Source: Methanosarcina sp. MTP4
GTDB taxonomy: Archaea > Halobacteriota > Methanosarcinia > Methanosarcinales > Methanosarcinaceae
Length of the DNA stretch: 64,000 bases
Assembly: GCF_000970045.1 (NCBI RefSeq)
Contig: NZ_CP009505.1
Span: 3,682,808 to 3,746,807, forward strand
Direction of reading: 5' to 3'
How positions within the stretch are numbered: position 1 is the first letter of the stretch; every line of letters starts with the position of its first letter. The position numbers were made by a program, and so were the translations under genes. This document shows, one piece after another, positions 6,621 through 60,861 of the stretch. The notes beneath the pieces were generated by a model. The model saw only the letters and a list, made by a program, of their open reading frames with translations, was not told the DNA's origin and ran no database searches.

Positions 6621-6627
6621 AAGTTCC

Positions 6628-7979: not shown

Positions 7980-7993
7980 GCCACCATCCCCTT

Positions 7994-8644: not shown

Positions 8645-8653
8645 AAGAATACC

Positions 8654-11705: not shown

Positions 11706-11723
11706 TAAAGAACGCCTCTGTTA

Positions 11724-25197: not shown

Positions 25198-25209
25198 GTT
25201 TGATCTGCC

Positions 25210-28716: not shown

Positions 28717-28717
28717 T

Positions 28718-29914
28718 TCAATTCACCTGTTCAAATGAGGAGTCTAAATGTTTAAATGATAATTTCACCCATCCTAGAGGTTTGCCTTCAATTGTTAATC
28801 TCCTTGTTTTTGGAAAGTTGGATGAATATTTATTTGTTCCTGGTTTTCTGCCAAGTTGTAAATGTTCTCTTATAGAATTTTCAGTGTGTTTTCGATGATT
28901 TGAACTTTTTTCTAACGAACTTGTAAAATTAGGAAAAGAATCTAAGATCAAACCTATGGTTGTACTGTACCAGCCTCCACCCCAGCCGATATGCAAAATT
29001 GCTTCATTTTCTTCACATTTTAAAACTTCATTCCATAACATATCAAACTCATCAATTGTACTGTCACAATTGTAATTTTCCCACATATATTCCAGATGTT
29101 TTTCGAGAACATTCTTTGAAAATTCATTGCAAGCTTTGCAAATTGCCTGGACATTCATGTATTTTGCACAGGGATGGTTTTTGAAGTCTGGTTTCCCTTT
29201 ATTCTGGTTAAGCAAATATTCATCAAAAACAAGATCGAAAAATAGTTCAGAGCCAGCTTTCAAGTTCTCAACATACACGGGGATTTCCTGTGAGTTCCCA
29301 ACTATTTTGATTTCTGAAACCTCTAAATGATTTTTTCCTGCAATAATTGTATCTGAGGGTCTCATTACGCGAAGTATATCCGAATGTGTATCCTTTCCAA
29401 ACACGATTTTTGAAATATTGTCATCAAGAGATTTTAAGTCCCTGCCGGAAATTCTATGCTTCTTTAACCAGGGCTTCAGGCCATTCTGGACAATCTCAAC
29501 TCCGTCAGGCCTTTCTGTCAGGCTCTTCCACAATAATGCTGTCCTGATTGCTCCTTTTATGGATGAACCCGGTAAATACGGTCCTCCGCATTTTACGAAC
29601 TCCTTGATAGCAAACTCGGATTCTCGACTTCGCGTTTCAATTTTTGCATCAACGGCATAGGATGTAAAAGCATTGGGATCGATATTGTTTACATTCATAA
29701 ATCTGGTTATGGAAAAATCCCTGCCTGTGTAATATCTACGATTTTGCATCTCCTCTTTGAGGTCTATATTTTCCTTGATGCAGTGTTCAATGAATTTTTC
29801 AAAATTTATGAATTTGATTATCCCTTTTCTCTTATTCAGGTGAAAATCGACCATTTTCAGTTCGTTACCATTCCCAACATGCAGGGGAGATAAAAGTTTC
29901 ATACTGCATTTCAT
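28718..29914 (-). CDS. csm5: Csm5 RAMP subunit, type III-A
   Basis: Csm5 caps the 3' end of the crRNA in the Csm complex. The 398-aa protein begins CSMKLLSPLHVGNGNELK, a typical RAMP first strand, contains the glycine-rich YLPGSSIKGAIRTALL, and ends with a second G-rich segment (HIGWGGGWYSTTIG). These match Csm5. It overlaps csm4 by 4 nt (ATGA) and is followed at once by the TIR-CARF gene. Confidence 0.93.
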   Translation of the reverse strand: MKCSMKLLSPLHVGNGNELKMVDFHLNKRKGIIKFINFEKFIEHCIKENIDLKEEMQNRRYYTGRDFSITRFMNVNNIDPNAFTSYAVDAKIETRSRESEFAIKEFVKCGGPYLPGSSIKGAIRTALLWKSLTERPDGVEIVQNGLKPWLKKHRISGRDLKSLDDNISKIVFGKDTHSDILRVMRPSDTIIAGKNHLEVSEIKIVGNSQEIPVYVENLKAGSELFFDLVFDEYLLNQNKGKPDFKNHPCAKYMNVQAICKACNEFSKNVLEKHLEYMWENYNCDSTIDEFDMLWNEVLKCEENEAILHIGWGGGWYSTTIGLILDSFPNFTSSLEKSSNHRKHTENSIREHLQLGRKPGTNKYSSNFPKTRRLTIEGKPLGWVKLSFKHLDSSFEQVN

Positions 29915-30918
29915 GCTTTTTCATCCCCACTGATACTTATTGGGATCGAATAGGCAAACCCATAATGGTATATGTTTTTGATTTCTTCCAGGTCTGAATC
30001 GTCTTTGATCAGTTTGCCTTCAGGCTTTTTTTCAAATATGGACCCTTCCTTTATGAAAAGCCTCTGAGCTTTCTGAGAGGAATTTCCGGAGCCGTAGGGG
30101 TAAGCGTAGCCTCCTCTTAAAGAAAAGCCCCACCTTGCATTTTTATCAGAAAAAAGTTGTTTCTCATCGGTTGTTGGGTCCTCACTATCGTTTGGATAGA
30201 AGAGGGATAGAAGAAGATGGGCATCTGAATCCGGCAGTTCCAAATGAATTTCTTCTTCCTCAAGAGAAAAATTTCCGTATCCCCATGTTCTCTTTCCGCC
30301 GATTCCATCATGCTGGAGTAAACGCAGTGCTGAAAGCACTCTGTTTTCCAATTCTTTGTTTGCACATTCAAGGATGAACCAGATCCCTGAATCCTTTTTA
30401 AAACAAAATGAACCAAGGAAGTAGATACTGGATTCTGCGCTATCTCTACTTATGGACACCTTAGGAAGAAGTAATCCCGTTCCAAATCCTGAATCTTCAC
30501 ACTCTTTTGCAGCTTCGTTTTCCGTGATTTCTTTGAGGTCATTTTCCGATAATTCCTTTTCTGCAATCCATTTTTCAAAAAAATCTTTAGTTAGATAACT
30601 GGTCTTTTTTAATTTTTTAGAATAATCCTGAAGTAAGTCTTCATCAATATTCGCCCTGCTCATAGGTTTAGGAAAATAAAGGATTTTATCTGCGAAGGGA
30701 AAACCTGAAGAGATCCTGAAAAGGGGTTCGGTTTCAAAATTCTTGAGAAAATCTGTTACCCATTTTCTTCCATAGAGTTTTGCAAGAGCGTTGCAGATTG
30801 CGTTGAATATGGTGTCCGAGTGCAGTACAAGACTGCTTTCCTCAAGCCCGATTCCAATTTCTCCGATATGCAGGGGGGAAGTGAAATTAAGCTTTACAAT
30901 CTTGACGTTCTCAGGCAT
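29911..30918 (-). CDS. csm4: Csm4 RAMP subunit, type III-A
   Basis: Csm4 binds the crRNA 5' handle and contacts Cas10. The 335-aa protein starts VKLNFTSPLHIGEIG, has SDTIFNAICNAL, and a C-terminal glycine-rich GIGGKRTWGYGNF, all as in Csm4. It overlaps csm3 by 8 nt and csm5 by 4 nt, indicating translational coupling. Confidence 0.94.
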   Translation of the reverse strand: MPENVKIVKLNFTSPLHIGEIGIGLEESSLVLHSDTIFNAICNALAKLYGRKWVTDFLKNFETEPLFRISSGFPFADKILYFPKPMSRANIDEDLLQDYSKKLKKTSYLTKDFFEKWIAEKELSENDLKEITENEAAKECEDSGFGTGLLLPKVSISRDSAESSIYFLGSFCFKKDSGIWFILECANKELENRVLSALRLLQHDGIGGKRTWGYGNFSLEEEEIHLELPDSDAHLLLSLFYPNDSEDPTTDEKQLFSDKNARWGFSLRGGYAYPYGSGNSSQKAQRLFIKEGSIFEKKPEGKLIKDDSDLEEIKNIYHYGFAYSIPISISGDEKA

Positions 30919-31705
30919 TCTTTTCCCCTGTGAAGCTGCTTATTATATCTTCTACTGAGATTATCTCTTCTTCTGACTTGTTTTCCAGAATGAGACTCTC
31001 ATCACCGGAAATGTAGTATTTCTTTGGATATCCGGTATACCTTATATTTTCAAATTTTACCTTTCCATAACCTCTTGAACCGTGGCCACCAAGAGCATCC
31101 TGTTCGAGCAATTTCAAAGCCATCTGGATTCTTGTGATGTCTTCTTCAAGCTCAGCTTCTTCTTCGGCATCATAAACAAGTTCGAACTCGAATCTGGCTC
31201 CTGCCGGAACCCTTTCGATCTGCCTCGGGTTTGCTGCCGAACTTATCCGATCGATGCTGTTTTCAAACTTCCACTCAGTGTAGGGGAGACCGGTGTCAAT
31301 ATTTAACAGTTCCTTGTCATTTGAAAGGAGCATGTCCCGGACAATTAAACGGCTGGGAATATTCTTTTGATCTTTAGTATCCTCATCTTTTTTACTGCTC
31401 CCGAAAAGTCTGCAGATTTCACAGTGTTTGTCCGTGCAGACATGCACATTGATATCGGGCTTACTGCTTATTCTAACGAGGTCTTTTTCCAGGGCCTTTT
31501 CGGAGAGGCTTCTTAGTTTTCCTTTCAATGAACTGCCAGGAATATATGGAAGATCTGTTAGCGGATCCCGGACTACGGGACTGTCGATACCTCCAATCTT
31601 TACCGTTTCTTTAGAAGCCCCGATGTGCATACCGGTAACTACTATCATATCACCTGTGATCTTAATCTTTCCAAGAAATTTGAGTTTCATAGGTTCTTCA
31701 CTCAT
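30911..31705 (-). CDS. csm3: Csm3 backbone RNase, type III-A
   Basis: Csm3 forms the helical backbone of the complex and cuts target RNA every 6 nt. The 264-aa protein has GGIDSPVVRDP with the likely catalytic Asp41, then YIPGSSLKGKLRSL, a cysteine cluster CTDKHCEICRLFG, and the C-terminal DALGGHGSRGYGKV. Conservation of the Asp suggests target cleavage is active. It starts right after the csm2 stop. Confidence 0.96.
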   Translation of the reverse strand: MSEEPMKLKFLGKIKITGDMIVVTGMHIGASKETVKIGGIDSPVVRDPLTDLPYIPGSSLKGKLRSLSEKALEKDLVRISSKPDINVHVCTDKHCEICRLFGSSKKDEDTKDQKNIPSRLIVRDMLLSNDKELLNIDTGLPYTEWKFENSIDRISSAANPRQIERVPAGARFEFELVYDAEEEAELEEDITRIQMALKLLEQDALGGHGSRGYGKVKFENIRYTGYPKKYYISGDESLILENKSEEEIISVEDIISSFTGEKNA

Positions 31706-32224
31706 TTAATCACGCCCCCCTGCAAGTTTGTGATATGCTATTACACCTTCAAGCAGCGTCACAACCAGCTCGAACTGTTTATTATTCAAATCCGTGTTTT
31801 CCGGGAATCTTTCGTTGTCAAGCATGGAATCAAGGAGGTCTGTCAACCTTGTAAGATTAGAATTACGAGCTGTTATGTATGCAAGGTTAAGTTTTAATTT
31901 TGAAATATCGGCAGGCTTGATTCCAGACGTTTTTGTTTTCTCTATTTTTGTTTTCTCTTTAACTATCTGGAAGCCGGTAAGCAACCTGCGTAGCTGGGTG
32001 AATGTGATTTTGTCTTTTGAAAGTTTAATGCCCATTATGCAGGAAGCGTTCAGAATTTTGGAAGAATCAATATCTGAACCTGACATTAACGGCCGGATGT
32101 ACACCCTTTCTTCCTTTTCGTACCACTTGTTAATCATCCATGAATCAGAATTTTTTGCCACATTACACAGCTCGATTAATCTTCCTATTTTAAGTAAGTT
32201 TGAAAGTTCATTATCTTCACTCAT
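31706..32224 (-). CDS. csm2: Csm2 small subunit, type III-A
   Basis: Csm2 is the small helical subunit along the Csm backbone. The 172-aa protein is alpha-rich, with SKDKITFTQLRRLLTGFQIV and LNLAYITARN near the middle, matching the conserved part of the family. It is longer than many Csm2 proteins because of an N-terminal extension (about 50 residues). Its ATG overlaps the cas10 stop, as expected for this operon order. Confidence 0.9.
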   Translation of the reverse strand: MSEDNELSNLLKIGRLIELCNVAKNSDSWMINKWYEKEERVYIRPLMSGSDIDSSKILNASCIMGIKLSKDKITFTQLRRLLTGFQIVKEKTKIEKTKTSGIKPADISKLKLNLAYITARNSNLTRLTDLLDSMLDNERFPENTDLNNKQFELVVTLLEGVIAYHKLAGGRD

Positions 32225-34767
32225 TAATTCACCTTCCTTCCCCGTAGATCCAAAATATTCAGAGGCAGATCGATATCATAAATCGGATTCACTTTTTCGT
32301 CAGGAACAGAATAGAAATATTTTCTTAGTTTGTTATTTTTATCAAGGATTTTCTTCAGGTCTTTATTCCGTGAAACAAAATAATGTAACTGGATAACCCA
32401 GTTGGCTTTTTCAGGATCTTTACAATACATTTCTCTCGCATCGAGAAGCTTTCTCACCATGGTTTTGGAGGAATTTCCTTTTTCTTTCATGATGTACCAG
32501 AAAAAAGGTTCAAAATTAGAGAAGAGTTTCCTTGCGTCTTCCCATTCAAGGGAGTCTTTTATTTCTTCAAAATCTTTTATTTCTTTAAACGTCTCTAAAA
32601 TATGATCCTTCCCCACACCCCTATTAAGGAGATAGACCCTGTTTCTGCCTTCATCTTTGGAACATTCTTCTTTATTTCCGCAGACTCTGGCAATCTGGTA
32701 CAGTGGGTGTTTATTATTGAAGATAGAAAATCCGGCTGAAATCGTAACGTGCGGATTCTCAGCTACATATTTGCGGAACAAACCTTGAATGTCAAAACAG
32801 AGTTCAAAAACGTCATCCCAAGCTCCGAGTATGAAAAGATCGTCACCGCCTGCATAGACTATGCTGATATTACGTGAAGGGTCTCTACTCTTTACAAGGT
32901 TTGGCGAATTGCTCTGCCAGTTGCAGACGTCCAAGACATTTTCTTCATCAAATTCTCCGAGAAAGTTTAGATAACCTTTGAAGAAATAGTTCATCATCCT
33001 AGATAAACTGGATATCCTGGTGATTGTTCGCCGATTATCGGGAAGCCCTAATGTGAAAATCTTTCCGAGATTGTCAACATCCATCCGGACCGCACCGAGC
33101 TTCTTCGAGCCCTCCGATTTATCCGCAAGCTGCTCAAAGGTAAGGAGTTGCCTGTCAGTTTCCTTTTCATCGGATTTGGCACAGTAAATAGCAATAGGCA
33201 AAGATGAAACATGAATATCAGGAGGAATTTTTTTACTTTTCATCAGGTTAATTATTTCACCTGTATCAAAGTTGTTAACAGCATATACTGAGGAAGACTT
33301 ACTGACCGTCCCCATTGTCTCTTTATCCATAATCTTCATCGTACTGAATGGTATGGAAAAGCCTTCGCCCCTGTACTTTGTTTTTAATATGTAGAACGAA
33401 TCACCTAACCTGGCCAGTTCACTTCCAATTTTCATCTGTTCACGGCAAAGGGGACAAAATGCCACATCCTCTTCATCAACCGATTCCAGATCTTTATATG
33501 GAGTTCTCTTCCTGCATGCATCACAGGGATCGCCTTTGTCTCCAAGTTCCAGTATTTTTGAAGGATTCTTTTCAAGTGCCGACTGATATTTTTGAGCCTT
33601 CTTCAATGAGTTTTTCTGGTTAATATCCATCCATATCTTGCTGAAATTTTCAAACTTCTTCCCGCAGAAAGGAATACAGGAAAGAGCCACGTAAAGGCTG
33701 CTACTGAGTCCGTTGGCAATTAGCCAGCCTTCCGAACCCTTTCCTTCCAGGTTATTTTCTATTCCATAAAGGTCATTTTCTATTTCTTTCAATTTATTTT
33801 TTGCATCCTCAGTGTTTGGAGCAAGAATGTAAAAATTTCCGCCTCCGGAATAGAGAATGTTTGTCTTCGGAAGCCCGAGCCTTTCAACTATCTCGTGTAC
33901 GATGTCCTCGCAGAACATCTCCAGATAAAAGGACCGTCCTCTGAGAAGCCTCATAGCCCCTTTAGAGGAAATACGGTATATGAAGTCCTGGATTCCGGAA
34001 ACATCCCCACCTATTAGCAGATAATTTTCAGCCTTCAAATCGGAAATTTCATTCACAAGATCCTTTTCGAGTTCCTTTTCATGGAGCCTGTACATGCAGG
34101 AAGCAATCGCACAGGTTGTCTTGAGGTGATCAAAAAGTGAAATATCATTGTTCGCACCAGAACCGGCCGGAATAAATGCAGTGTTCTGCTCAAGGAACAT
34201 CAACAGGAGGTCTTCGTTAATCCGGTTCTCGTCGAGGTCCAGGAGTTTTCCAAAGAAATCCTTGAAAGATTTGTATATCTCTCCACATCCCTCCTCTGCC
34301 AGGGCAGGCAGGTCTTCCTTTAACCAGGGATACACAAAGGCCTTCGAGTCAAGTTTTACGGAAGGATAGTACTTTATGGGAACTTCAAACTTCTTACCCT
34401 CCTTCTCCTCCTTGATCCCCGAGATCCCCGAAAAAACAGACCTCAAAAGGTGCTTTCCAGCGGCATCTTCTCCATCACTACCGTCATTACCTGAAGAAAG
34501 CCTGGAAGCTTCCCTCACCATCCATAAAAGGTTCCTGGATTTTTGGCTCAGCCCCTCCTCCACAATTTCATCAACCGATCGGGCATGGTGATACTTCGCA
34601 AACGCAGAAAAGCCTTCGGTGTTCGCAAACGAGCTGAGAAACTCAAATCCCCTCTCAGCATGCCCTTTCGCCTCACCTTCAGGAGCCGGCACAACATGCC
34701 CTATGTCATGCAGCAGAGCTCCTATTTTCAGAAAAAGATAATCAGAATTGGTGTCACTTTTAGACAT
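32224..34767 (-). CDS. cas10: Cas10 (Csm1) with intact HD and cyclase sites
   Basis: Cas10 is the signature subunit of type III systems; on target RNA binding it cuts single-stranded DNA and makes cyclic oligoadenylate. The 847-aa protein has an HD nuclease motif at residues 20-21 (LLHDIGHV) with HAERG downstream. The first Palm domain begins at GGDVSGIQDFIY (about 253), zinc cysteines lie at about 415, 418, 438 and 441, and the second Palm domain carries YAGGDDLFILG (GGDD 640-643). All key residues are present, so DNase and signalling activities are expected. It is the first gene of the csm operon; the signal most likely acts on the two CARF proteins at its end. Confidence 0.97.
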   Translation of the reverse strand: MSKSDTNSDYLFLKIGALLHDIGHVVPAPEGEAKGHAERGFEFLSSFANTEGFSAFAKYHHARSVDEIVEEGLSQKSRNLLWMVREASRLSSGNDGSDGEDAAGKHLLRSVFSGISGIKEEKEGKKFEVPIKYYPSVKLDSKAFVYPWLKEDLPALAEEGCGEIYKSFKDFFGKLLDLDENRINEDLLLMFLEQNTAFIPAGSGANNDISLFDHLKTTCAIASCMYRLHEKELEKDLVNEISDLKAENYLLIGGDVSGIQDFIYRISSKGAMRLLRGRSFYLEMFCEDIVHEIVERLGLPKTNILYSGGGNFYILAPNTEDAKNKLKEIENDLYGIENNLEGKGSEGWLIANGLSSSLYVALSCIPFCGKKFENFSKIWMDINQKNSLKKAQKYQSALEKNPSKILELGDKGDPCDACRKRTPYKDLESVDEEDVAFCPLCREQMKIGSELARLGDSFYILKTKYRGEGFSIPFSTMKIMDKETMGTVSKSSSVYAVNNFDTGEIINLMKSKKIPPDIHVSSLPIAIYCAKSDEKETDRQLLTFEQLADKSEGSKKLGAVRMDVDNLGKIFTLGLPDNRRTITRISSLSRMMNYFFKGYLNFLGEFDEENVLDVCNWQSNSPNLVKSRDPSRNISIVYAGGDDLFILGAWDDVFELCFDIQGLFRKYVAENPHVTISAGFSIFNNKHPLYQIARVCGNKEECSKDEGRNRVYLLNRGVGKDHILETFKEIKDFEEIKDSLEWEDARKLFSNFEPFFWYIMKEKGNSSKTMVRKLLDAREMYCKDPEKANWVIQLHYFVSRNKDLKKILDKNNKLRKYFYSVPDEKVNPIYDIDLPLNILDLRGRKVN

Positions 34768-34891: not shown

Positions 34892-35878
34892 GCTTCAATC
34901 CTTGTTTTGCTGGAAGCTGTTTTGCAACTTGGCTATTACATGTTTACTCTGCCACTTTTAAAAAATAGTTTCAATCCTTGTTTTGCTGGAAGCTGTTTTG
35001 CAACAAGAGAGAGATGACTGGAACCGTTTGGTTCTAGAAGTTTCAATCCTTGTTTTGCTGGAAGCTGTTTTGCAACCTTGTCCATATAGATGACATCTTG
35101 TTATACTTTACATGTTTCAATCCTTGTTTTGCTGGAAGCTGTTTTGCAACTGTCTATTTGGACGTCTCTGATGAATCAAAATACACCGAGGTTTCAATCC
35201 TTGTTTTGCTGGAAGCTGTTTTGCAACTACTGTCTGCGGTTTTTGTGGTAGGGTATGAATATAGTTTCAATCCTTGTTTTGCTGGAAGCTGTTTTGCAAC
35301 TTGAGCTATGTGAGTAAAGCAAGATTATCAAGACGAATGGTTTCAATCCTTGTTTTGCTGGAAGCTGTTTTGCAACTCTGGTAGTTCTTAGGGACGGCAA
35401 AGAAATTTATGTTTCAATCCTTGTTTTGCTGGAAGCTGTTTTGCAACAAATCACTAAACATGGAAGAAGGGACAGAAATTTGTTTCAATCCTTGTTTTGC
35501 TGGAAGCTGTTTTGCAACTGGAGGAATTTGCTTCTTCCCCGCGTTCGGAGGAGGTTTCAATCCTTGTTTTGCTGGAAGCTGTTTTGCAACCAAATGGCTA
35601 TCAGTAGCGGGCAACCTTATTTAGTGTTTCAATCCTTGTTTTGCTGGAAGCTGTTTTGCAACTTTGGGTTCCACAAAATTCTTTTTTCAGATTAAAGAGT
35701 TTCAATCCTTGTTTTGCTGGAAGCTGTTTTGCAACCCGGAATAGAAGTTTCCGTTGATGAGGAAATAAAGTTTCAATCCTTGTTTTGCTGGAAGCTGTTT
35801 TGCAACAAATATTTTGGGTCTGGTCTTGTACGAAGGGCATAGTTTCAATCCTTGTTTTGCTGGAAGCTGTTTTGCAAC
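34892..35878 (-). CRISPR. CRISPR array B2, 14 repeats, type III-A-associated family
   Basis: Fourteen 37-nt repeats of the GTTTTGCAAC-ending family. The first (34892-34928) has a T-to-C change near its outer end, consistent with the trailer side next to the cas10 promoter. The leader lies on the right. Spacer at about 35001-35038 contains a hairpin (GGAACC/GGTTCT). Confidence 0.98.
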
Positions 35879-36321: not shown

Positions 36322-36993
36322 TCAGTTGTCCCGGTATACGCGGATTTTTCGGACGGTGCCTCTGCCCATTGCTGTGGATTTGCCAATTCCCATATAGTCG
36401 GGGATGCAGAAGTTTGCCATGAAACCGCCGTAGAAGGAGAGGAAGTTTACGTCTTTGTACTCGCTATTTGTTACCCTTACATCGAGGTCGCATTTGATCC
36501 GGTCGGGGACGGTGTAGCCGAGGCCTTTTGACATGGAAAGGAGGTTTCCCGTGAGGATTCTGCGGAGCATTTCTTTTTGCTCTTCCAGGGTTTTGAGCTG
36601 CATGAACTTTTCGTGGTTTTCCTGGTTCAGGGGGAGCCAGGGGGTAAGGAACTCGTAGAAGTAGATCTTGTCCGAAAGCCCGAATTCCTGGTTCTTGATC
36701 GTCATGGACCGCTGGATTATCTCGTACTCGGTTTCCCCCAGCCTGACCGAGTCAAAGTCGTCAAAGATCTCTTTCAGGACATCGATTCCTTCGTTTATGC
36801 CCAGGATGAGGGGCCTTTTCCCGACCACCTTGTACTGGATTGTAGGATAACCGTACACGAATTTGTCCGTGTTGTGGTTGTGAAGCTGGACGTATTCGTT
36901 GAATTTCGTGGCGAAAAAGCCTCGGGTGCAGAGGATGTTTTCCTTGAATTCCTTTGTGGACTTGAAGGACATTTCGAGGGTTTTGAGTTTCAT
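36322..36993 (-). CDS. cas6: Cas6 pre-crRNA endoribonuclease, type III-A island
   Basis: This second Cas6 (223 aa from the ATG at 36993) shares motifs with the I-B copy: RGFFATKFNEY, YGYPTIQYKVVGKRPLILG, TPWLPLNQENHEKF and the C-terminal IPDYMGIGKSTAMGRG. It probably processes the B-family repeats. It lies 62 nt downstream of the reverse transcriptase stop-to-start junction, on the same strand, so the two are likely co-transcribed. The frame is open to 37005 (GTG), an alternative start. Confidence 0.9.
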   Translation of the reverse strand: MKLKTLEMSFKSTKEFKENILCTRGFFATKFNEYVQLHNHNTDKFVYGYPTIQYKVVGKRPLILGINEGIDVLKEIFDDFDSVRLGETEYEIIQRSMTIKNQEFGLSDKIYFYEFLTPWLPLNQENHEKFMQLKTLEEQKEMLRRILTGNLLSMSKGLGYTVPDRIKCDLDVRVTNSEYKDVNFLSFYGGFMANFCIPDYMGIGKSTAMGRGTVRKIRVYRDN

Positions 36994-37055
36994 GTTGACC
37001 AGCACGGGATAGCCTGAAATTTTTTAAGGTGCAAAATTAAAAAAGAGTTGACCGG

Positions 37056-38788: not shown

Positions 38789-39915
38789 GTATTGATCCTT
38801 GTTTTGCTGGAAGCTGTTTTGCAACGTGTTGAGAGAGGTCTAAAAAATGTCACTTAATACGGTTTCAATCCTTGTTTTGCTGGAAGCTGTTTTGCAACAT
38901 TGGCACCCAATGGGAAGGGTGCACAAGGAGCTAGAAGTTTCAATCCTTGTTTTGCTGGAAGCTGTTTTGCAACTAAAAAAGCAGAGGATTCTTTCCTTGT
39001 GAGAGTTTGTTTCAATCCTTGTTTTGCTGGAAGCTGTTTTGCAACTGGAGTGGAGTATGGCTCAGGATATTAGATTAAAGTTTCAATCCTTGTTTTGCTG
39101 GAAGCTGTTTTGCAACAGAACTTTGAAGTCTTACAGCGCAGGGGATCAGGCGTTTCAATCCTTGTTTTGCTGGAAGCTGTTTTGCAACATTAGAACCGGT
39201 AGAGATAGACGCTATCGGTTACATAGTTTCAATCCTTGTTTTGCTGGAAGCTGTTTTGCAACAACAAAAAAGAAAGAGAAAAAGAGGATGATAAATTGGT
39301 TTCAATCCTTGTTTTGCTGGAAGCTGTTTTGCAACAGAGAAAAAGATTTTTGATGCTTCCAAAGTTTTACAGTTTCAATCCTTGTTTTGCTGGAAGCTGT
39401 TTTGCAACAGAAAAAGCATGGGGATATGCGGAGGTACAATATCGTTTCAATCCTTGTTTTGCTGGAAGCTGTTTTGCAACTTTGGACAACGATGTAATCA
39501 CAATAATCACTAAAGTTTCAATCCTTGTTTTGCTGGAAGCTGTTTTGCAACTTTTTATTCGTGCCTGGTGTTAAAGAATGGGCAGAAGTTTCAATCCTTG
39601 TTTTGCTGGAAGCTGTTTTGCAACAGTGAATATGACTTCACGCCAAAAGCTCTAAAAAAGTTTCAATCCTTGTTTTGCTGGAAGCTGTTTTGCAACTGCA
39701 GGATAAAGTCGTCGATGCCATGAAAGACATCAGTTTCAATCCTTGTTTTGCTGGAAGCTGTTTTGCAACGACGAGAAAATTGTCGGATGGATTGCCGAAT
39801 ATAGTTTCAATCCTTGTTTTGCTGGAAGCTGTTTTGCAACCTCGATTATAATGGGAATGATTATAAAGACCTGTTTCAGTTTCAATCCTTGTTTTGCTGG
39901 AAGCTGTTTTGCAAC
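38789..39915 (-). CRISPR. CRISPR array B3, 16 repeats, next to cas1-cas2
   Basis: Sixteen 37-nt repeats of the B family; the leftmost (38789-38825) is degenerate at its outer end, marking the trailer. The leader on the right leads directly into cas1. Hairpin-bearing spacers occur at 38899-38911, 39194-39220 and 39626-39641. Confidence 0.98.
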
Positions 39916-40450: not shown

Positions 40451-41458
40451 ATGCGAGTTGTGATTGATGAATACGGGACTTATGTGCACAAGAAGCGAAA
40501 CCGCTTTGTCACAATGAACAATAAGGACAAGGCGGTTAAATGGGAATTTTCGGCAGACAAGGTTACCCAGATTCTGGTTTACAGGGGAGCTGCCATCACT
40601 GCGGATGCAATTGACCTTGCGGTCAAAAAGGGCATAGACATCATTTATCTGGACAAGTTCGGAAAGCCTTTTGCAAGGACATATTCGTGCAAATTCGAGA
40701 ATTCTGCTGCGGTCCACCGCTGCCAGGTGCGGGCGTATGACAGCGAAAAAGGAGCCCGGCTGATGAGGGGGATGATCGAGGCAAAGATCAGGAACCAGTC
40801 ATATCTGCTAAAAAGCCTTGCAAGGAACAGGGAAGACAGGGAACTGGAAGAGACAGCCGAACATATCCTTTCCCTCTGTGCAGGGCTTCCCGAAGGCGGA
40901 GACATCGACATGTCCAGAAACAGGCTTTTCGGGATCGAAGGGGAAGCTTCCAGGGAATATTTCGGAGCCCTTGGGACCGTGCTTCCCGAAAAAGCATATT
41001 CAGGGAAAAGGACAAAGCAGCCCCCGGAAGACCTTTTCAATGCCCTGCTCAGCTACGGATACGGGATCCTCTACACCGAAGTGGAAAAAGCCTGCGTCCT
41101 TGCCGGGCTTGACCCTTACATGGGTTTCCTGCATACCGACAGGCCGGGAAAGCCCTCCATGGTTCTGGACCTGATGGAAGAGTTCAGGCAGCCCGTGGTT
41201 GACAGGGCAGCAATCTCCCTTGTCTCGAAAAAGGCAGTAAAGCCCGACGAACTCAAAGCGGTTGAAAACGGCTTTTACCTGGACCGGTCGGGGAGGCATA
41301 AGATGGTCGAAGCCATGAGCTCAAGGCTTTCGAAAATAATCACTTACAGGAAAGACCGGCACTCCTTTTCCAGCCTGGTACTCCGGCAGGCGAGGGAAGT
41401 CGTGAAGTTCATCTGCGGAGAGGAAGAGGCTTACTCTCCTTTCGTGTACGGGGGATGA
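40451..41458 (+). CDS. cas1: Cas1 integrase, type III-A island
   Basis: The 335-aa Cas1 is complete, from MRVVIDEYGTYVHKK to the catalytic region: GIEGEASREYFGAL (Glu), GFLHTDRPGKPSMVLDLMEE (His and Asp). AGGAGG stands about 11 nt before the ATG. It follows the leader of array B3 and overlaps cas2. It is only a distant relative of the I-B Cas1 at 7.0 kb, so the two systems have separate adaptation machines. The nearby reverse transcriptase is a separate protein, not fused as in some bacterial systems. Confidence 0.96.
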   Translation: MRVVIDEYGTYVHKKRNRFVTMNNKDKAVKWEFSADKVTQILVYRGAAITADAIDLAVKKGIDIIYLDKFGKPFARTYSCKFENSAAVHRCQVRAYDSEKGARLMRGMIEAKIRNQSYLLKSLARNREDRELEETAEHILSLCAGLPEGGDIDMSRNRLFGIEGEASREYFGALGTVLPEKAYSGKRTKQPPEDLFNALLSYGYGILYTEVEKACVLAGLDPYMGFLHTDRPGKPSMVLDLMEEFRQPVVDRAAISLVSKKAVKPDELKAVENGFYLDRSGRHKMVEAMSSRLSKIITYRKDRHSFSSLVLRQAREVVKFICGEEEAYSPFVYGG

Positions 41459-41763
41459 AAGTGCTTCTCTGGCTCATCTACGATATCACGGACAATTCCC
41501 TTCGCTACCGGGTCTGTGAGACCTGCAAGGACTTTGGCCTCTTCAGGGTCCAGAAAAGCGTGTTCTTCGGGGAACTGGACGCCGACAAAACAGCCTCGAT
41601 TCTGGATAAAATGGAAGATATCTTGAACGATGAAAACAAAACAGAGCATGATTCGGTACTCATCCTTCCGGTCTGCCGGGCATGCCTTTCAAAAATGCTC
41701 GCCGCCGGGAGAATGTTTGATGCCGGCCTGTACACGGACCGGGAATGTGTAATTCTCGGCTGA
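41455..41763 (+). CDS. cas2: Cas2, type III-A island
   Basis: The 102-aa Cas2 starts VLLWLIYDITDN and contains FRVQKSVFFGELD, typical of the family. Its ATG overlaps the cas1 TGA. Unlike the I-B Cas2 it has no N-terminal extension. C-terminal Cys residues (VCRACLSK) are unusual but not at known functional positions. Confidence 0.95.
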   Translation: MKVLLWLIYDITDNSLRYRVCETCKDFGLFRVQKSVFFGELDADKTASILDKMEDILNDENKTEHDSVLILPVCRACLSKMLAAGRMFDAGLYTDRECVILG

Positions 41764-41798
41764 AATCAAGGGGAAATCAGGGAATATGGAGGATAAGC

Positions 41799-42566
41799 AT
41801 GTCAGTATTGATTGCTACGGTTGGTGGAACTGAAAGTGTTGTAAAGCTCGGTTTTCGAATGATGGAAAACGTGGAAAAAGTAATACTCGTCCCCGGAAAG
41901 CCGTTCGAACAGGTAATGGAAAAGTCTGAAATCAAGCAAGGAAAAACCCGTTCCAACCCCGTCCGAAAAGCCTATGAACTGAAAAAGTCAATCGAGGACT
42001 TCGGAGCGGAGGTCGAGATTCACGAAGTAAACCCCCTCAATTTCAAGGAATGCCTGATAAGGATCATAGAACTGATACAGGAACAGCCCGAAGGAACTGA
42101 TGTCGCAGTAAACGTAACCGGCGGGACAAAGCTCCTCTCCCTTGCTGCAATGAACGCCGCCTGCATGTGCTACTGCAAAGCTTTCTACGTCCAGGAAAAA
42201 GGTTCCGGAGACATAAAAGTTGACCTGCCGTCCCCCAATTCCGGCTACTTTTACGACATAGGAGACCAGGCGAAGAAAATACTATCGTACCTTCTGGACG
42301 AGCACAAAAAGTTGAAAAAACCCGTAGAAGAATGCAGTGATTACGAGTTGAAGAAATTCATAAATCGAGAGATAGCCGGTGGACTGAAAGTGACATCACA
42401 GACTATCACCAATAAACTCCAGATGCTGGAAGCAGACGGGCTTCTCATGAGTAAAAAAGGTGCCCTTAAAAACTCGTCAGGATTAGGGAAAAGCAGCGTG
42501 AAGATCTGGTGGCTTACTGATGAAGGTAGAATATACGCTACCTACTTCAGCAAAAAGGGTTCTTGA
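41799..42566 (+). CDS. CARF-winged-helix regulator downstream of cas1-cas2
   Basis: From the ATG at 41799 (GGAGG upstream) the protein has 255 residues; the frame extends to 41745. The N-terminal CARF domain starts SVLIATVGGTESVVKLG and has the loop VAVNVTGGTKLLSLAAMNA. The C-terminal winged helix includes VTSQTITNKLQMLEADGLL. It is Csa3-like but quite different from the copy at 14582. Position after cas1-cas2 suggests control of adaptation or of the B leaders, possibly in response to cyclic oligoadenylate. Confidence 0.85.
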   Translation: MSVLIATVGGTESVVKLGFRMMENVEKVILVPGKPFEQVMEKSEIKQGKTRSNPVRKAYELKKSIEDFGAEVEIHEVNPLNFKECLIRIIELIQEQPEGTDVAVNVTGGTKLLSLAAMNAACMCYCKAFYVQEKGSGDIKVDLPSPNSGYFYDIGDQAKKILSYLLDEHKKLKKPVEECSDYELKKFINREIAGGLKVTSQTITNKLQMLEADGLLMSKKGALKNSSGLGKSSVKIWWLTDEGRIYATYFSKKGS

Positions 42567-42674
42567 TCTCTCTACTATTATTTTTTCACATTTTAGCCTG
42601 TTTTCATCTTCATTTACTTTTGTTGAAACTACCTTGCATTTGAGTTTTTTCTGTAAAATCTCTTGTTCTTTTGT

Positions 42675-43371
42675 AGTGAAATCCCTGTTTTAGTGGGTCA
42701 TGATCACGAATCACCCCCGCCCCATTGTTTCCAATGGAAACAAAAAAGTTTCAATCCTTTTTTGCTGGAAGCTGTTTTGCAACTTGAAGTTGGAGTAGTA
42801 GACACCGATATGAAGAAAGTTTCAATCCTTGTTTTAGTGGATCTTGCTCACGAATGGAGAGAGTTGGAATTGAGTATGATAAGGAGGTGTTTGTTTCAAT
42901 CCTTGTTTTAGTGGATCTTGCTCACGAATTCGTAAGATTTCATTTATTGCCTCTTTCCTTGCTTCGGTTTCAATCCTTGTTTTAGTGGATCTTGCTCACG
43001 AATTTGAGTAAGGCATTAACTAATAGGGCAAATGTAGTACGTTTCAATCCTTGTTTTAGTGGATCTTGCTCACGAATCACGGCAGAAGCGAAGGGAGATG
43101 GTCAGGGAAACTGAGTTTCAATCCTTGTTTTAGTGGATCTTGCTCACGAATGGAGTTGACAGAACATGAAAACCGTAGCTGATCTAAGTTTCAATCCTTG
43201 TTTTAGTGGATCTTGCTCACGAATGCTATGAACGTTCCGACGCTTGAGCAGTGGGGGGTATGTTTCAATCCTTGTTTTAGTGGATCTTGCTCACGAATTT
43301 ACAAACGATATTACTAAGATCGAACAGGAAATTGGTTTCAATCCTTGTTTTAGTGGATCTTGCTCACGAAT
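42675..43371 (-). CRISPR. Mixed CRISPR array A2 with two repeat families
   Basis: Eight intact 37-nt repeats (42819 to 43371) end in GCTCACGAAT, a variant of the A1 family. To their left is one B-family repeat (42748-42783) that has lost one base, and beyond that a heavily mutated A-type repeat (42675-42711). The decayed units mark the trailer. The right end, where a leader should be, joins an integrase fragment, so the array appears to lack its own leader. Confidence 0.95.
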
Positions 43372-43372
43372 G

Positions 43373-43474
43373 GGGCATGATCCGCTTACTTCTATGCGGC
43401 ATTATCAGGGGCTGGCTTTCACGAAGGAAGAGAAGGGGGAGATTAAGAGAAGATTGGCCGGGTGGACGGAGTGA
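43373..43474 (+). pseudogene. Integrase C-terminal fragment abutting array A2
   Basis: Directly after the last repeat the plus strand encodes GHDPLTSMRHYQGLAF and a further 18 residues to a stop. This matches the C-terminus of the integrase at 16663 (GHDSLTSMRHYRR) including the nucleophile Tyr. The upstream part of the gene is absent. The fragment is longer than a spacer and ends with its own stop codon, so it is a gene remnant rather than an acquired spacer. Confidence 0.75.
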
Positions 43475-43675
43475 TTTGAAGGGTGTGAGGTGGGTGAGGG
43501 AAAAGTGGCTTTGTAGGAAAGCTTTCTGAGATATTTTTTTGGATTTAAGATTCTACCAAACTAAAACGTTTAACGCTTGAAGATATGATTTATTTTTTTG
43601 TACAGTGTAGAATTTCTAGAATCGTTTTTTGTGCCGATAAATCTGGAATTTTTGGAGCCTTAGTTTGTGAGTTAC

Positions 43676-44011
43676 TCACTCAGTTTGTTTGAGGATTTCG
43701 GTTTGATTCATAGGATTTTTAGATTTTTCTTGTTTTTTCACAAAATCTGCTTTACACAAAGAAGCCAAAAGTTCTTTACCTTCTTCAGTTTGTAAAATAG
43801 CATTGAGCATTATTTCGGGGAGTTTAGTTTCACTTTGTTGAATTTCTCTACTAACCCTCTCATCATACTTTGCAATAAACTCAGCTATTGCTGTATTTAC
43901 AAAATCTGAAACACTACTAAACTCTCCAGAATCTACGAACTCATCTATTCGATTTTTTAAATAAGGGCTTATAGTTGAGCTAATCTTTTCTTTTTTATAT
44001 TGAATTGCCAT
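43676..44011 (-). CDS. Ribbon-helix-helix protein, copy 1
   Basis: The 111-aa protein begins KEKISSTISPYLKNRIDEFV followed by FSSVSDFVNTAIAEFIAKYDE, a clear ribbon-helix-helix (CopG/ParD-like) DNA-binding pattern. The helical C-terminal part has no recognised domain. A near-identical copy lies just upstream (44128-44400), so the pair arose by tandem duplication. No toxin-like partner is visible next to it. Likely a small repressor of an element or defence locus; target unknown. Confidence 0.7.
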   Translation of the reverse strand: MAIQYKKEKISSTISPYLKNRIDEFVDSGEFSSVSDFVNTAIAEFIAKYDERVSREIQQSETKLPEIMLNAILQTEEGKELLASLCKADFVKKQEKSKNPMNQTEILKQTE

Positions 44012-44440
44012 AAGATTACACCAAAATCCTGTAGTTAGATTAACATTTCATAAAAATCATGAAAAAAGGCAGAATAAAAGGAATAATAATTACTTTAATA
44101 TCACTTTTTTAGATTTTTCTTGCTTTTTCACAAATCTGCTTTACACAAAGAAGCCAAAAGTTCTCTACCTTCTCCAGTTTGTAAAATAGCATTGAGCATT
44201 ATTTCAGGGAGTTTTGTTTCACTTTGTTGAATTTCTCTACTAACCCTCTCATCATACTTCGCAATAAACTCAGCTATTGCTGTATTTACAAAATCTGAAA
44301 CACTACTAAACTCTCCAGAATCTACGAACTCATCTATTCGATTTTTTAAATAAGGGCTTATAGTTGAGCTAATCTTTTCTTTTTTATATTGAATTGTCAT
44401 AAGATTACACCAAAATCCTGTATTAGATTAACATTTCCAA
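43718..44440. repeat. Tandem segmental duplication of the RHH gene
   Basis: Two units of about 330 bp (about 43718-44054 and 44107-44440) are nearly identical, including the coding part and upstream TAAGATTACACCAAAATCCT. A spacer of about 50 bp separates them. Confidence 0.85.
44128..44400 (-). CDS. Ribbon-helix-helix protein, copy 2, frameshifted C-terminus
   Basis: The first 87 residues are almost identical to copy 1. One A is missing in the run at about 44130 (CACAAATC instead of CACAAAATC), which shifts the frame and ends the protein at 90 aa. The DNA-binding part is intact, so it may still function. High identity implies a recent duplication. Confidence 0.65.
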   Translation of the reverse strand: MTIQYKKEKISSTISPYLKNRIDEFVDSGEFSSVSDFVNTAIAEFIAKYDERVSREIQQSETKLPEIMLNAILQTGEGRELLASLCKADL

Positions 44441-45989: not shown

Positions 45990-46433
45990 ATGGTATCGAA
46001 AGTTTGCCTCCGATGCAATCGCCCCCTCAAAAACCCCCTGAGTCAAGAGAGAGGGTACGGCCCGGAATGCTGGAAAAAGATTCAACAACATGTAGAAAAA
46101 AGACAAGATTATCCCCTCCCCTGCTCTATTTCTGACCCTATTATTGCCTCTGAGACCCTGGCAGAGATCTCCCGCAGGGCACGGGTAGCAAACCGTAAAA
46201 AATGCGATTGTGGGAAGTCGCTCGTTTCTGGAGAGGTGAAAACTTATGACCATGACTGTGGGGAGACCCTGGCAGGCTTCTCACATCCCCAGTGGGTATA
46301 CCTCACATGTCCAAAGTGCGGGTATCAATGGGCCTACTGGAAGCTGCGCGGGCCTTCCCTGAAAGATCTATCTGAACCGCAGAGCACTCCAAACCCTTGT
46401 GAAGTGGACATGAGTCCTCGCCGACTATTTTGA
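45990..46433 (+). CDS. Zinc-binding protein, DUF6011-like
   Basis: The 147-aa protein opens with KVCLRCNRPLKNPLSQERGY and GPECWKK, the pattern of DUF6011 zinc fingers found on plasmids and viruses. Two more cysteine pairs follow (KCDCGKSL, LTCPKCGYQW). GGAGAC lies upstream of the ATG. The stop overlaps the region just before the Rep start. Role unknown; nucleic-acid binding is likely from the zinc motifs. Confidence 0.6.
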   Translation: MVSKVCLRCNRPLKNPLSQERGYGPECWKKIQQHVEKRQDYPLPCSISDPIIASETLAEISRRARVANRKKCDCGKSLVSGEVKTYDHDCGETLAGFSHPQWVYLTCPKCGYQWAYWKLRGPSLKDLSEPQSTPNPCEVDMSPRRLF

Positions 46434-46465
46434 AACCAAGCTATCTACTATTCCTCAGGAGATCT

Positions 46466-47806
46466 ATGGCAGGACTTACCAAGGCCCAGATCTCTGATAT
46501 CTGGGCGGAAACATCAGAAAAACCTCTCTCAATGAAGCAAATAACCCAGAATCTCGGTCTGGATGGAAAAAAAGGATATCTGCAAGTCTATAATTATTTC
46601 CAGACTAAAAAGGCAAGATCTCATTTTTTTATGAGAAAAGAAAATTCAATCCTCTGGATTCAAGCAAACCCCCAAAACAAACTAGACTTGATCTTAGATA
46701 AGCAAAATTCGAAAAAAACCAAACTCGTAATCGGAAGGCATCATTCAATACCTGGGGTAAAACGTGCCAGTCCTGAGAGGATGGAAGCAATCTTAAAAAC
46801 CACCCGCTGCAAGGGTTATGGATATACTGATAAAAAAACAGGAAAATTTATTAAAACTAATAATATAAAAGAGGAAAACATAAAATTGTTTTGGAACTAC
46901 ATCAACCGTGTCTCAAAGGAAAAAATCACATATACCCGTTCAACGGATGGAGATCCTGTATTTTCCAGCGAAAATGTATATTTACCATATGCTACCAGGT
47001 TCACTTCAAAAAAGAGGCAGCTTAAGATTGTAGAGGGCTACAGGGGAACCTGGTCAAATGCCTCAAAACGGTATCTCATAGGGGTTTTCCTGACTCTCAC
47101 AGCCGATCCTAAAAAGCATAAATCCCTGTGGCATTGCAATTATGAAATGCGGAAGGCTTGGGATCGTCTCCGCTCCCTCATAAATACCTGGTTCCCTAAA
47201 AAAGTCCCCTGGATCTGCATAAGGGAATTTCAGGAAAACGGAAGGTTACATTTTCACGTCGTTTTCTTTGGTATAAACTGGCTTGAAACAAAGAAAAAAA
47301 TCCAGTTTTTCTGGACCAAATATGGCGGCGGCTATGTAATGGACATCCACGCAATCCGCCGGACTTCTGACGGCTGGACCTGGTCCCGAAGTTGCCCTCT
47401 AGAAGCCGCTAATCAGGATCCAAAAACCTTCTTGTCGGAGTATCTCGAAAAATCGATGTCTCCATTATTCGGAATGGATTACTGGCTCACGGGTGTACAG
47501 TATTGGACCGCCTCCCGGGAGATCCGGGCAACCCATAAAAAAAAGGAAAAGCAGGGGAACTGGATATTCAAAGGGGTCAAAAGCCCTGTTACAAAGTTTC
47601 GTGCTTCCCATAGGAAGGACAGTAATGCCCTGTACTCCAGTTCTCTGTTGAAGAAAAAGCGGGTCAAAACTGGAACTGAAAATGGACCTGAAACAAAGCT
47701 CAAAGTAATACAGACTGATCCCCCGCCCCACACGGAATTTAGAAGGGCTTCTGATTTGTCCTGTAGTGCTAAACGGAGTTATCAACATGAGTCCAGGTAT
47801 ACATGA
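46466..47806 (+). CDS. HUH rolling-circle replication initiator (Rep)
   Basis: The start at ATG 46466 has AGGAG upstream (the frame is open from 46430). The 446-aa protein carries the three Rep motifs: motif 1 VFLTLTADP, motif 2 ENGRLHFHVVFFG with the HxH metal site, and motif 3 SEYLEKSMS with a single Tyr and Lys four residues apart. It would nick the element origin and start rolling-circle replication. An N-terminal helix-turn-helix-like part (TKAQISDIWAETSEKPLSMK) may bind DNA. Its stop overlaps the TnpB fragment. It shows that the segment beside tRNA-Thr derives from a plasmid or virus. Confidence 0.82.
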   Translation: MAGLTKAQISDIWAETSEKPLSMKQITQNLGLDGKKGYLQVYNYFQTKKARSHFFMRKENSILWIQANPQNKLDLILDKQNSKKTKLVIGRHHSIPGVKRASPERMEAILKTTRCKGYGYTDKKTGKFIKTNNIKEENIKLFWNYINRVSKEKITYTRSTDGDPVFSSENVYLPYATRFTSKKRQLKIVEGYRGTWSNASKRYLIGVFLTLTADPKKHKSLWHCNYEMRKAWDRLRSLINTWFPKKVPWICIREFQENGRLHFHVVFFGINWLETKKKIQFFWTKYGGGYVMDIHAIRRTSDGWTWSRSCPLEAANQDPKTFLSEYLEKSMSPLFGMDYWLTGVQYWTASREIRATHKKKEKQGNWIFKGVKSPVTKFRASHRKDSNALYSSSLLKKKRVKTGTENGPETKLKVIQTDPPPHTEFRRASDLSCSAKRSYQHESRYT

Positions 47807-48705
47807 ACAGATACGAATGGTTGAGGGTGCATGGGGATATGACCCTATCCTATAAACGGGATTATACCATCACAGAAAATTCAGTAAGCATAACAACGTT
47901 CAGTTCCGGGAGAAAACAGTACAGTATTCAGAACTACGCTTATGCTAAACAGTATTTCGAAAACCCCTGGAAATTCGGAGCCTCGAAGGTTGTAAGGCAC
48001 GATGACGGTGATTACTATTTCCATCTCACGGTTTCCAAGGAAGTTTAGGACGTAAACATTACCGAAGCGTCTACTCTTATGGGGGTTGACGTTGGGATAA
48101 ATTACCTTGCAGTTGCCTCTACCACTGACAAGAAATGCGAGTTTTTTGCGGGTGGAGAGCTTAAGAACCTCCGGAACACGTACAAGAAAATGAGAGCAAG
48201 GTTACAGTCTAAGGGAACTTTATCGGCAAAACGAGTTATGAAGCGGCTTTCCGGTAAAGAGAAACGTCTAATGAAAGATGTTAACCACTGCATCTCCAAA
48301 AAAATTGTTGAATTTGCGCTTGAAAACAATGTTTCCGTTATTGGTTTGGAAGACTTGACAGGAATTCGGGACAGGACTCAGTACAGGGTCCGGAAAAAAC
48401 AGCGTTATACCCACAGCAGTTGGGCTTTTCGGCAACTGCAAACCTTCATTGAGTATAAAGCAAAACAGGTTGGAATTCTCGTAGAATATATTAATCCTGA
48501 ATACACTTCCCAGACCTGTTCCCGGTGCAACCATATTTCTAAAAATAACAGGAAAGGGTTGAGGTTCCGGTGCGGAGCCTGTGGTTTCGAGATGAATGCA
48601 GACCTGAACGCCGCTAGAAACATTGAGCATAGAACACGGGATTTCAGGTATAGCGTGGAGTCTCAGGGGTGCTTGTCAACCATCCATACGAATAAAATGA
48701 TCTGA
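47803..48705 (+). CDS. tnpB: TnpB-like RuvC nuclease, N-terminally truncated, in-frame UAG
   Basis: The frame from 47803 to 48705 is open except for a single TAG at 48046-48048. After it come the TnpB RuvC motifs: GVDVGINYLAV (Asp), VIGLEDLTGI (Glu), a zinc finger CSRCNHISKNNRKGLRFRCGAC, and NADLNAARNI (Asp). TnpB is an RNA-guided nuclease of IS200/IS605 elements. In Methanosarcina UAG can encode pyrrolysine, so the two parts may be one 300-aa product. The usual first 80-100 residues are missing, and the left end joins the rep gene, so the copy may still be inactive. The right end of the element is kept (48729-48768). Confidence 0.75.
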
Positions 48706-48728
48706 GAGAATAATCAGGGATATTCAAG

Positions 48729-48768
48729 CCCCTTCCTCGGCTCCGAAGGAGACCGGGAGGGGTAGTTG
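48729..48768 (+). mobile_element. IS605-type right-end hairpin after tnpB
   Basis: CCCCTTCC (48729-48736) pairs imperfectly with GGGAGGGG (48755-48762) and is followed by TAGTTGAC, the form of right ends of IS1341/IS605 elements. In such elements this region also forms the scaffold of the TnpB guide RNA. No left end was found. Confidence 0.55.
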
Positions 48769-48828
48769 ACTGCCGACTTCCTTTATGCAATCCGAGCTAT
48801 TTTTATTGGGGAGTGCCCTTCCAAAAAA

Positions 48829-49977
48829 TTAATTGGTATTCGCGTTCTCAAGTGCTTCTATGGCTTCGTCGCTTTTTAGAAATAGCTTCCAGATTTTTGG
48901 CAAGCCTTGTTCATATTCCTGAACCTTCTTGAGAGAATCAAAATCCATCGCCATTCCACAACGTGAACAGAACTTTGAGGTAGGACCGTTAACCTTCTCA
49001 CAACGAGGGCATTTTTTGCTTGTAAGTTCCGGAATCATGGACTCTTCCTTTTTAATGCCATAGATCCTCAGTAATGCGTCATCGATCTGCTTTCCGGAAA
49101 GGTGAACATAGATCCGTGGCATCTCTGAGCCGGGTACCCAACCTAAATGTTCTTCGAGCTGAGACTCGGTAAGATGCTGTGCCAGTTCCGTACTCCTTGA
49201 ATGTCGGAACAGATGATTATAGACCCTTTTTTTGATGCCCGCTTTTTTAGCCACGGTTTTTATGAGTTTGCGGAAGGCTGCGTACTGAAGCTGTTGACCG
49301 CTTTTTCTCCCCCGGATCATTATCCATAAGTGAGCATCCGGATTGTCCTTATGTGAGTGAATATCAAGCCACGCTGCAAGGTAAGGGACAGAGAATATAA
49401 TCCGTACACGTCTCATGCCGGTTTTTCCGCTTACAATCAGAATAGCCCCATACTGGTCAAAAACAACATGTTTAAGCTTAAGGGATCCCATTTCCCCTAT
49501 ACGCGCCCCTGTGTCATAGAGAACCGCTATAATTGCTTTGTCCCTAGGATGTTCGGCAGCCTCAATCATCTGCTTAATTTCGGCTTCTGAAAGCAGTTCT
49601 TCAGGCAACTTGGAGGAATTTTTCTTCATGGAAGTTTTAATCCATTTGATTTTATCCTCCATACCAAGCCATGTGAAAAAACGCTTTACAGCAAGCTTAT
49701 AATCGTGCTTGGTCCATTCAGCCCAATCCGAACGTTCAATCCTTGCAACAATAGACTGAATATCTTCAAGTTCCATAGAGGAAAACTTAGTATCCGTCCA
49801 CCCTGCAATGACATTAAGATGTGACAGGTATTTCAAGACCCGAACATTGGATAGCCCGTTGGCAAAAAGGTAATTCTCGAATTTAAAAAACAGCTTTTTG
49901 TTGTCCTTGCAGTACTTTCCTTCCTTAATCCGCTTTTCCACCGCAGTTAAAGCCCTATCAGTCTCATAAATGCTCAT
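48829..49977 (-). CDS. Tyrosine integrase with C-terminal zinc ribbon
   Basis: The 382-aa protein has a core-binding domain (about 15-115) and a catalytic domain with Arg in YDTGARIGEMGSLKL, Lys in VSGKTGMRR, HLFRHSRST, HLGW, and Tyr in MPRIYVHL. A zinc ribbon (KCPRCEKVNGPTSKFCSRCG) follows at about 318-337, an addition seen in archaeal XerC/D-like proteins. GAGGT precedes the ATG, and a TATA box (CATATATAATG) lies about 27 nt further upstream. It reads away from tRNA-Thr, whose 3' end faces it 80 bp away, the usual layout of a tRNA-targeting element. Confidence 0.88.
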   Translation of the reverse strand: MSIYETDRALTAVEKRIKEGKYCKDNKKLFFKFENYLFANGLSNVRVLKYLSHLNVIAGWTDTKFSSMELEDIQSIVARIERSDWAEWTKHDYKLAVKRFFTWLGMEDKIKWIKTSMKKNSSKLPEELLSEAEIKQMIEAAEHPRDKAIIAVLYDTGARIGEMGSLKLKHVVFDQYGAILIVSGKTGMRRVRIIFSVPYLAAWLDIHSHKDNPDAHLWIMIRGRKSGQQLQYAAFRKLIKTVAKKAGIKKRVYNHLFRHSRSTELAQHLTESQLEEHLGWVPGSEMPRIYVHLSGKQIDDALLRIYGIKKEESMIPELTSKKCPRCEKVNGPTSKFCSRCGMAMDFDSLKKVQEYEQGLPKIWKLFLKSDEAIEALENANTN

Positions 49978-60537: not shown

Positions 60538-60861
60538 CCGGTTAATTATTCCTTCCCGGTTAATTATTCCTTCCCGGATAATTCTTCCTTTCCGGATAAT
60601 TCTTCCTTTCCGGTTAATTCTTCCTTTCCGGTTAATTCTTCCTTTCCGGTTAATTCTTCCTTTCCGGATAATTCTTCCTTTCCGGTTAATTCTTCCTTTC
60701 CGGTTAATTCTTCCTTTCCGGATAATTATTCCTTTCCGGTTAATTATTCCTTTCCGGTTAATTATTCCTTCCCGGTTAATTATTCCTTCCCGGATAATTA
60801 TTCCTTTCCGGATAATTCTTCCTTTCCGGATAATTCTTCCTTTCCGGTTAATTCTTCCTTC
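60538..60861. repeat. 18-bp minisatellite, 18 units
   Basis: Eighteen head-to-tail units of the form CCGGWTAATTMTTCCTTY fill 324 bp exactly. Variation is limited to T/A after CCGG, C/A in the middle and T/C at the end, with runs of identical units, as expected from slippage or unequal exchange. On the minus strand one frame would read EELTGK-like repeats but is broken by stops in the ATT variants, so it appears non-coding. Confidence 0.95.

Follow-up and report, generated by a model that had tools for sequence, protein, structure and literature searches.

The CRISPR array at positions 42675-43371 of the window, i.e., the entire stretch of 64,000 nucleotides of Methanosarcina DNA that was analyzed, is most likely a composite relic, formed by recombination between co-oriented arrays and deprived of its leader afterwards. 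It consists of ten near-identical direct repeats with a period of 71-74 nt and nine different spacers of 35-37 nt. Two repeat families stand in register within it: read rightward from the trailer toward the leader side, it begins with a decayed A2-type repeat, continues with one B-type repeat, and ends with eight perfect A2 repeats. The letters A1, A2, B, and C are those of this analysis and extend an earlier distinction between A and B. The repeats start at 42675, 42748, 42819, 42893, 42967, 43041, 43115, 43188, 43262, and 43335, and the spacers measure, from left to right, 36, 35, 37, 37, 37, 37, 36, 37, and 36 nt. The array is built up as follows, the minus strand being the presumed crRNA sense and the repeats reading GTTTCAATCC... 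on the plus strand:

42675-42711, minus strand: decayed A2-type repeat, trailer-most
42712-42747, minus strand: spacer 0, 36 nt
42748-42783, minus strand: single B-type repeat, 36 nt, with base 13 deleted and otherwise as B of the III-A arrays
42784-42818, minus strand: spacer 1, 35 nt, predicted to have arrived with the B unit
42819-43371, minus strand: eight perfect A2 repeats and seven spacers of 36-37 nt

The A2 repeat differs in three bases from A1, the repeat of the I-B array of the window, and the label A-type, used in an earlier, sequence-only reading of this DNA, therefore covers two variants. It differs at 11 of 37 positions from B, which makes up the three arrays that surround the III-A csm operon. 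The first 17 nt (GTTTCAATCCTTGTTTT), which constitute the 3' end of the repeat in the presumed crRNA sense, are identical in A1, A2, and B. A shared crRNA handle could make the repeat types substrates of the same Cas6; the window encodes two Cas6b proteins, at 7994-8644 and 36322-37005. The RNA folds predicted for the repeats are weak for every type (z-scores from -0.33 to 1.11). All arrays of the CRISPR island run in the same direction, and the island comprises, besides the mixed array:

1-5876, minus strand: window part of a long A1 array; leader from 5877 onward, then the I-B cas operon at 6003-14261
15652-15813, minus strand: debris of A2-type repeats, the first of which is joined to part of a paralogue of the ORFs at 23704-25197 and 25210-28716
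19385-22369, minus strand: B array of 41 repeats, including one decayed; leader from 22370 onward
23704-34767, minus strand: III-A csm1-csm5 operon and two further ORFs, between B arrays
34892-35878, minus strand: B array of 14 repeats; leader from 35879 onward
38789-39915, minus strand: B array of 16 repeats, nearest to the mixed array; leader from 39916 onward

The first repeat of the mixed array (42675) has 8 mismatches in 37 positions to A2, 11 to A1, and 17 to B; matches of this quality are expected by chance at about 2e-6 in 64 kb, on both strands and with equal base frequencies. The second repeat (42748) is a B repeat of 36 nt that lacks base 13 (a G) and is otherwise identical to the repeat of the III-A arrays. 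The remaining eight are perfect A2 repeats, ending ...GGATCTTGCTCACGAAT. The claim that one B repeat lies among A-type repeats with a normal spacer on either side thus holds, the flanking spacers being 36 and 35 nt long. The B unit and the A2 units cannot be told apart by spacer length or G+C content. The 355 spacers compared, from three regions of the genome, include no counterpart of any in this array and, because none is shared, the spacers do not point to the donor arrays. The array and the adjoining integrase fragment match no phage record, and no viral contig carries an exact 24-nt core of any of the three spacers scanned, out of nine. Two bacterial plasmid records gave weak matches, one of 71% over 105 nt and the other of 91% over 35 nt, which were taken as chance.

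During spacer addition, the leader-end repeat is copied. Hence, the order A2-B-A2 cannot come from spacer addition alone, and at least one exchange is needed. Strand exchange in the shared 17-nt segment would have linked a run of A2 repeats to a trailer that contained an A2 and a single B unit. The simplest course would be one deletion between two neighbors of like orientation, an A2-B-B... array on the left and an A2 array on the right. If a B repeat of the former crossed over with an A2 repeat of the latter within the prefix common to both, A2-B-A2-A2... would result. A crossover in the prefix would produce repeats that look whole, with the tail of the repeat traveling with the spacer on its right. 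For that reason, spacer 1 should be a former III-A spacer.

Alternatively, two exchanges or a short gene conversion may have placed one B unit into a pre-existing A2 array, which lost its leader later. B arrays lie as little as 2.8 kb away, and A2-type repeats do flank the B unit on both sides. Nevertheless, this course is rather unlikely, as the two crossovers would have to lie some 70 nt from each other, or the conversion tract would have to span about one unit, whilst the other mixed arrays that were found, described below, show single switches.

Three such arrays, in this genome and two relatives, support a recombinational origin. In L011 of the same genome, three C-type repeats are followed by 52 A2-type repeats in sub-variants. 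In G001, a member of the same genus, locus L041 (contig C62, 7676-14298 and on) contains 91 repeats, of which 47 A1-like ones precede 44 A2-like ones with no intermediates. In G100, a member of another genus of the family, L086 10549-11925 contains a decayed C-like repeat and one A2-type repeat, then 17 B-like repeats and a B leader; elsewhere in G100, 36 nt separate a lone B repeat from a decayed A2-like repeat that comes after it. Together with the 17-nt shared segment, the three further mixed arrays support the earlier proposal of inter-array recombination in the shared repeat end. Mixed arrays amounted to four of the 28 examined, i.e., those with at least three classed repeats, in a sample that was not random, since a B repeat had guided the choice of L086 and a leader pattern that of L087-L090. 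Three of the four were flagged automatically; the array at 42675-43371 escaped because its deletion shifts the B tail, and it was added by hand. Among the 111 genomes of the family, from which decayed repeats escape such patterns, the exact patterns B-then-A and A1-then-A2 were each found in a single genome and the B tail pattern in two.

The surroundings of the array can be compared with G100, which has a syntenic III-A island:

40451-42566, plus strand: cas1, cas2, and csa3-like (CARF-HTH) genes left of the array, 93, 91, and 89% identical to those of G100, respectively
42567-42621, no strand assigned: 3' flank of the csa3-like gene, common to G100, with the similarity ending at about 42621

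In G100, the flank of the csa3-like gene continues to cas6b, and the array is absent at that spot. The similarity between the window and G100 gives out near 42621, about 54 bases short of the array, which therefore either joined here after the lineages split or was lost from G100. No close counterpart of the csa3-like gene beside the array was found in the three congeners compared, and a scan of named genomes with its protein yielded a single, distant haloarchaeal locus. G100 possesses co-oriented A2-B-B-type and A2 arrays as neighbors, 0.6 kb apart. The spacers and the flank of its own A2-B trailer look, by eye, unrelated to those of the array at 42675-43371.

The leader of the mixed array is expected on the right, as it was in the sequence-only reading, and this is borne out by the other arrays, whose leaders lie on that side. 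The leaders of the B arrays at 22370, 35879, and 39916 are 90-96% identical over about 300-430 nt, that of the A1 array (5877) is 96% identical to the leader of a second A1 array over 500 nt, and that of the A2-type array L011 is related to the A1 leader (76% over 108 nt). Six other aligned leader starts of the genome match one another or leaders of relatives. The stretch from 43372 onward shows no similarity to any leader compared; what lies there is an integrase fragment, as had been proposed, with a recombinase reading frame. For its trailer flank, no match among the other arrays was found. Two small leaderless A1 arrays are present in L012/L013 (2803925 and 2805120), where no integrase piece was noticed. 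Thus, leaderless remnants arise in this genome also where no such piece is noticed.

Without a leader and promoter, no new spacers would be expected, and any crRNA would rely on read-through. The array is probably an inactive, frozen relic. It might instead be alive as a small auxiliary array, whose transcription would start at a promoter within the integrase fragment or past it. Little decay is seen in the eight perfect repeats, all of which retain an intact common 3' end in the crRNA sense, as would suit a live array; in view of the absent leader, such activity is improbable.

The place of the leader is taken by a tyrosine recombinase remnant:

43372-43474, plus strand: C-terminal fragment of a tyrosine recombinase, in frame from 43373 with its stop codon at 43472-43474, at the expected leader site
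43475-43519, no strand assigned: remainder of the stretch common to the integrase scraps at genome positions 2136572 and 3674523, with 147-149 nt shared in all
16663-17292, plus strand: full-length tyrosine recombinase gene related to the fragment (Pfam Phage_integrase, 1e-7)

Homology to the integrase begins at 43372, with no gap after the last repeat. The frame 43373-43474 translates to GHDPLTSMRHYQGLAFTKEEKGEIKRRLAGWTE followed by a stop and corresponds to the last 33 codons of the gene alone, which is short of a complete catalytic domain. As the earlier reading had it, this C-terminus is akin to the product of the 16663 gene (57% identity over 35 aa). That gene was also said to lie beside A-type repeat debris; the debris exists, at 15652-15761, but the gene is about 0.9 kb away with another ORF in between, so that beside is a loose term. 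The genome contains five matches to the 16663 protein, i.e., the protein itself, the C-terminal pieces at 3674523, 2136572, and window position 43372, as well as, at 1874081, a weak match interrupted by two stops. The scraps at 2136572 and 3674523 are 91 and 86% identical, respectively, to the piece at 43372, but extend further upstream and differ there. Since 45 of the 111 family genomes match the integrase, many of the matches being partial or containing stops, the piece represents a common kind of decayed gene.

In the preferred scenario of recombination followed by leader loss, the leader would have disappeared when its first bases were joined illegitimately to this integrase pseudogene. 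The integrase piece starts GGGGCATG, and the joint reads GGGGCA. After 0-2 bases, GGGCA also opens the leader in four of five A2-type leader arrays (G001, G010, and two in G023), which were fetched before this start was looked for. The first base of the joint is a G, where the relatives mostly have an A. The fifth array, L011 of the same genome, starts with ACCGC rather than AGGGC, and this weakens the argument for microhomology, as it concerns the genome's own other A2-type array. A search for the GGGCA pattern in the 111 family genomes yielded 36 matches in 19 genomes, including the joint in the window. AGGGCA directly follows GAAT in 26 of the other 35 matches, at least one of which (in G114) sits inside an array rather than at a leader. 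Array ends confirm AGGGCA leaders in G095, G100, G102, G111 (two), and G114, all selected by that pattern. A 5-nt match at one given offset has a chance of 1 in 1024, a figure conceived after the data had been seen. These comparisons suggest that the integrase sequence was joined within the first bases of the leader via 5-nt microhomology.

That the integrase, or the element carrying it, acted on the array, with the repeat end or leader as attachment site and the fragment as the mark of integration, is very improbable: three of the five integrase matches of the genome do lie at 3.67-3.73 Mb, in or beside the CRISPR island, and the joint is exact at the repeat end, but the scraps have different upstream breakpoints, the scrap at 3674523 lies about 1 kb from the A1 array and, like the 16663 gene at its distance from the debris, is not joined to a repeat, and only two copies of the inverted-repeat motif that lies downstream of the scraps, with at most one mismatch, are present in the genome, both of them at the 2136 kb locus. 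A special role for the integrase is therefore not supported, with an incomplete gene, similar scraps elsewhere, and differing breakpoints. Nothing suggests that the integrase protein is made or acts on repeats, and the piece was probably not the agent of the rearrangement. The reading of the integrase as a mobile element whose 3' end is fixed was dropped, as the integrase copies align over about 150-200 nt and share no terminal motif.

The mixed array is a clear example of a kind of rearrangement that is already known. According to a review, spacer-repeat regions of different CRISPR loci recombine within the cell in Sulfolobales, as inferred via direct repeats (PMC4390879). The array described here would share this recombination between loci at direct repeats, but the arrays involved carry I-B-like and III-A repeats, which have a 17-nt end in common and show 11 mismatches in 37 positions. 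In the same review, the leaderless locus F of Sulfolobus solfataricus is reported to be inactive in acquisition and invariant (PMC4390879). As reported there, acquisition should stop when the leader is absent; both loci lack one, and locus F contains 88 spacers, whereas the array in the window has nine spacers and two repeat types. No description of an array mixing I-B and III-A repeats was found in the literature searched, which is no proof of absence.

A crossover within an array may also have affected the adaptation module in G001, which is a draft genome of about 60 contigs. In comparison with the second I-B locus of G000, the stretch that follows L041 (leader, cas4, cas2, and cas1) reaches 68-86% identity; from about 2.4 kb onward, identity amounts to 88-98%. 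Cas1 is 89% identical to that of G023, which belongs to another genus, and 82% to that of G000. Like cas6, cas3 resembles its counterpart in that second locus, and its product is 95% identical to Cas3 of G000. A joint replacement thus seems to have taken in the adaptation genes, the leader, and the leader-side portion of the array, one of its breakpoints lying inside the array. Cas4 shows no preference like that of Cas1 (76% to G023 and 78% to G000), and several windows are about equally far from G023 and G000. The G001 case suggests that a crossover can swap leader and adaptation genes and yet preserve the old memory. Between the two I-B loci of the genome under study (6003-14261 in the window and L012), cas1, cas2, and cas4 are 96-97% identical, and cas3, cas5, and cas7 31-35%; judging from these identities, effector genes have been exchanged under one adaptation module.

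In Methanosarcina mazei, which likewise has two systems in one cell, Nickel et al. reportedly described in 2018 cross-cleavage by Cas6b, with crRNA processing across the I-B and III-C systems. The subtypes there are I-B and III-C, as against I-B and III-A here. It is conceivable, although quite tentatively so, that the shared 17-nt repeat end serves as a hinge, which a common crRNA handle and Cas6 would keep alike and at which I-B and III-A arrays of one island, as well as arrays from other genera, would fuse by recombination; stored spacers might then survive the exchange of leader and adaptation genes, and either system might read spacers that belong to the other. The array offers a base-level view of the way in which CRISPR arrays of unlike type can fuse at the matching part of their repeats, and a link between shared repeat ends and the exchange of CRISPR modules is open to testing.

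Several other features of the island and its relatives were observed. The 1168-aa ORF at 25210-28716, adjoining the csm operon, has an N-terminal TIR domain (Pfam, 1e-9), and its C-terminal part resembles the neighboring 497-aa ORF. At 15365-15667, a fragment of a third paralogue of these ORFs (23704-25197 and 25210-28716) is fused mid-repeat to the A2-type debris. At L009 13131-15371, an insert of 2.2 kb with two ORFs of 423 and 257 aa, presumably an IS21-type pair, breaks up the long A1 array, and about 137 nt occupy the place of one of the array's spacers at L009 12662-12799. Just past the integrase fragment, two small ORFs on the minus strand (43676-44011 and 44128-44400) are 94% alike, and the former has a weak ribbon-helix-helix match. 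Further to the right of the array, 46430-49977 encodes a replication-protein-like ORF and a second tyrosine integrase of 382 aa and is probably an integrated element. In G100, a reverse-transcriptase gene beside cas6b is split (L086 6101-9187), with a second, distant reverse transcriptase between its parts; perhaps, these are nested group II introns. Finally, 18-nt units form a tandem array at 60463-60930 of the window.
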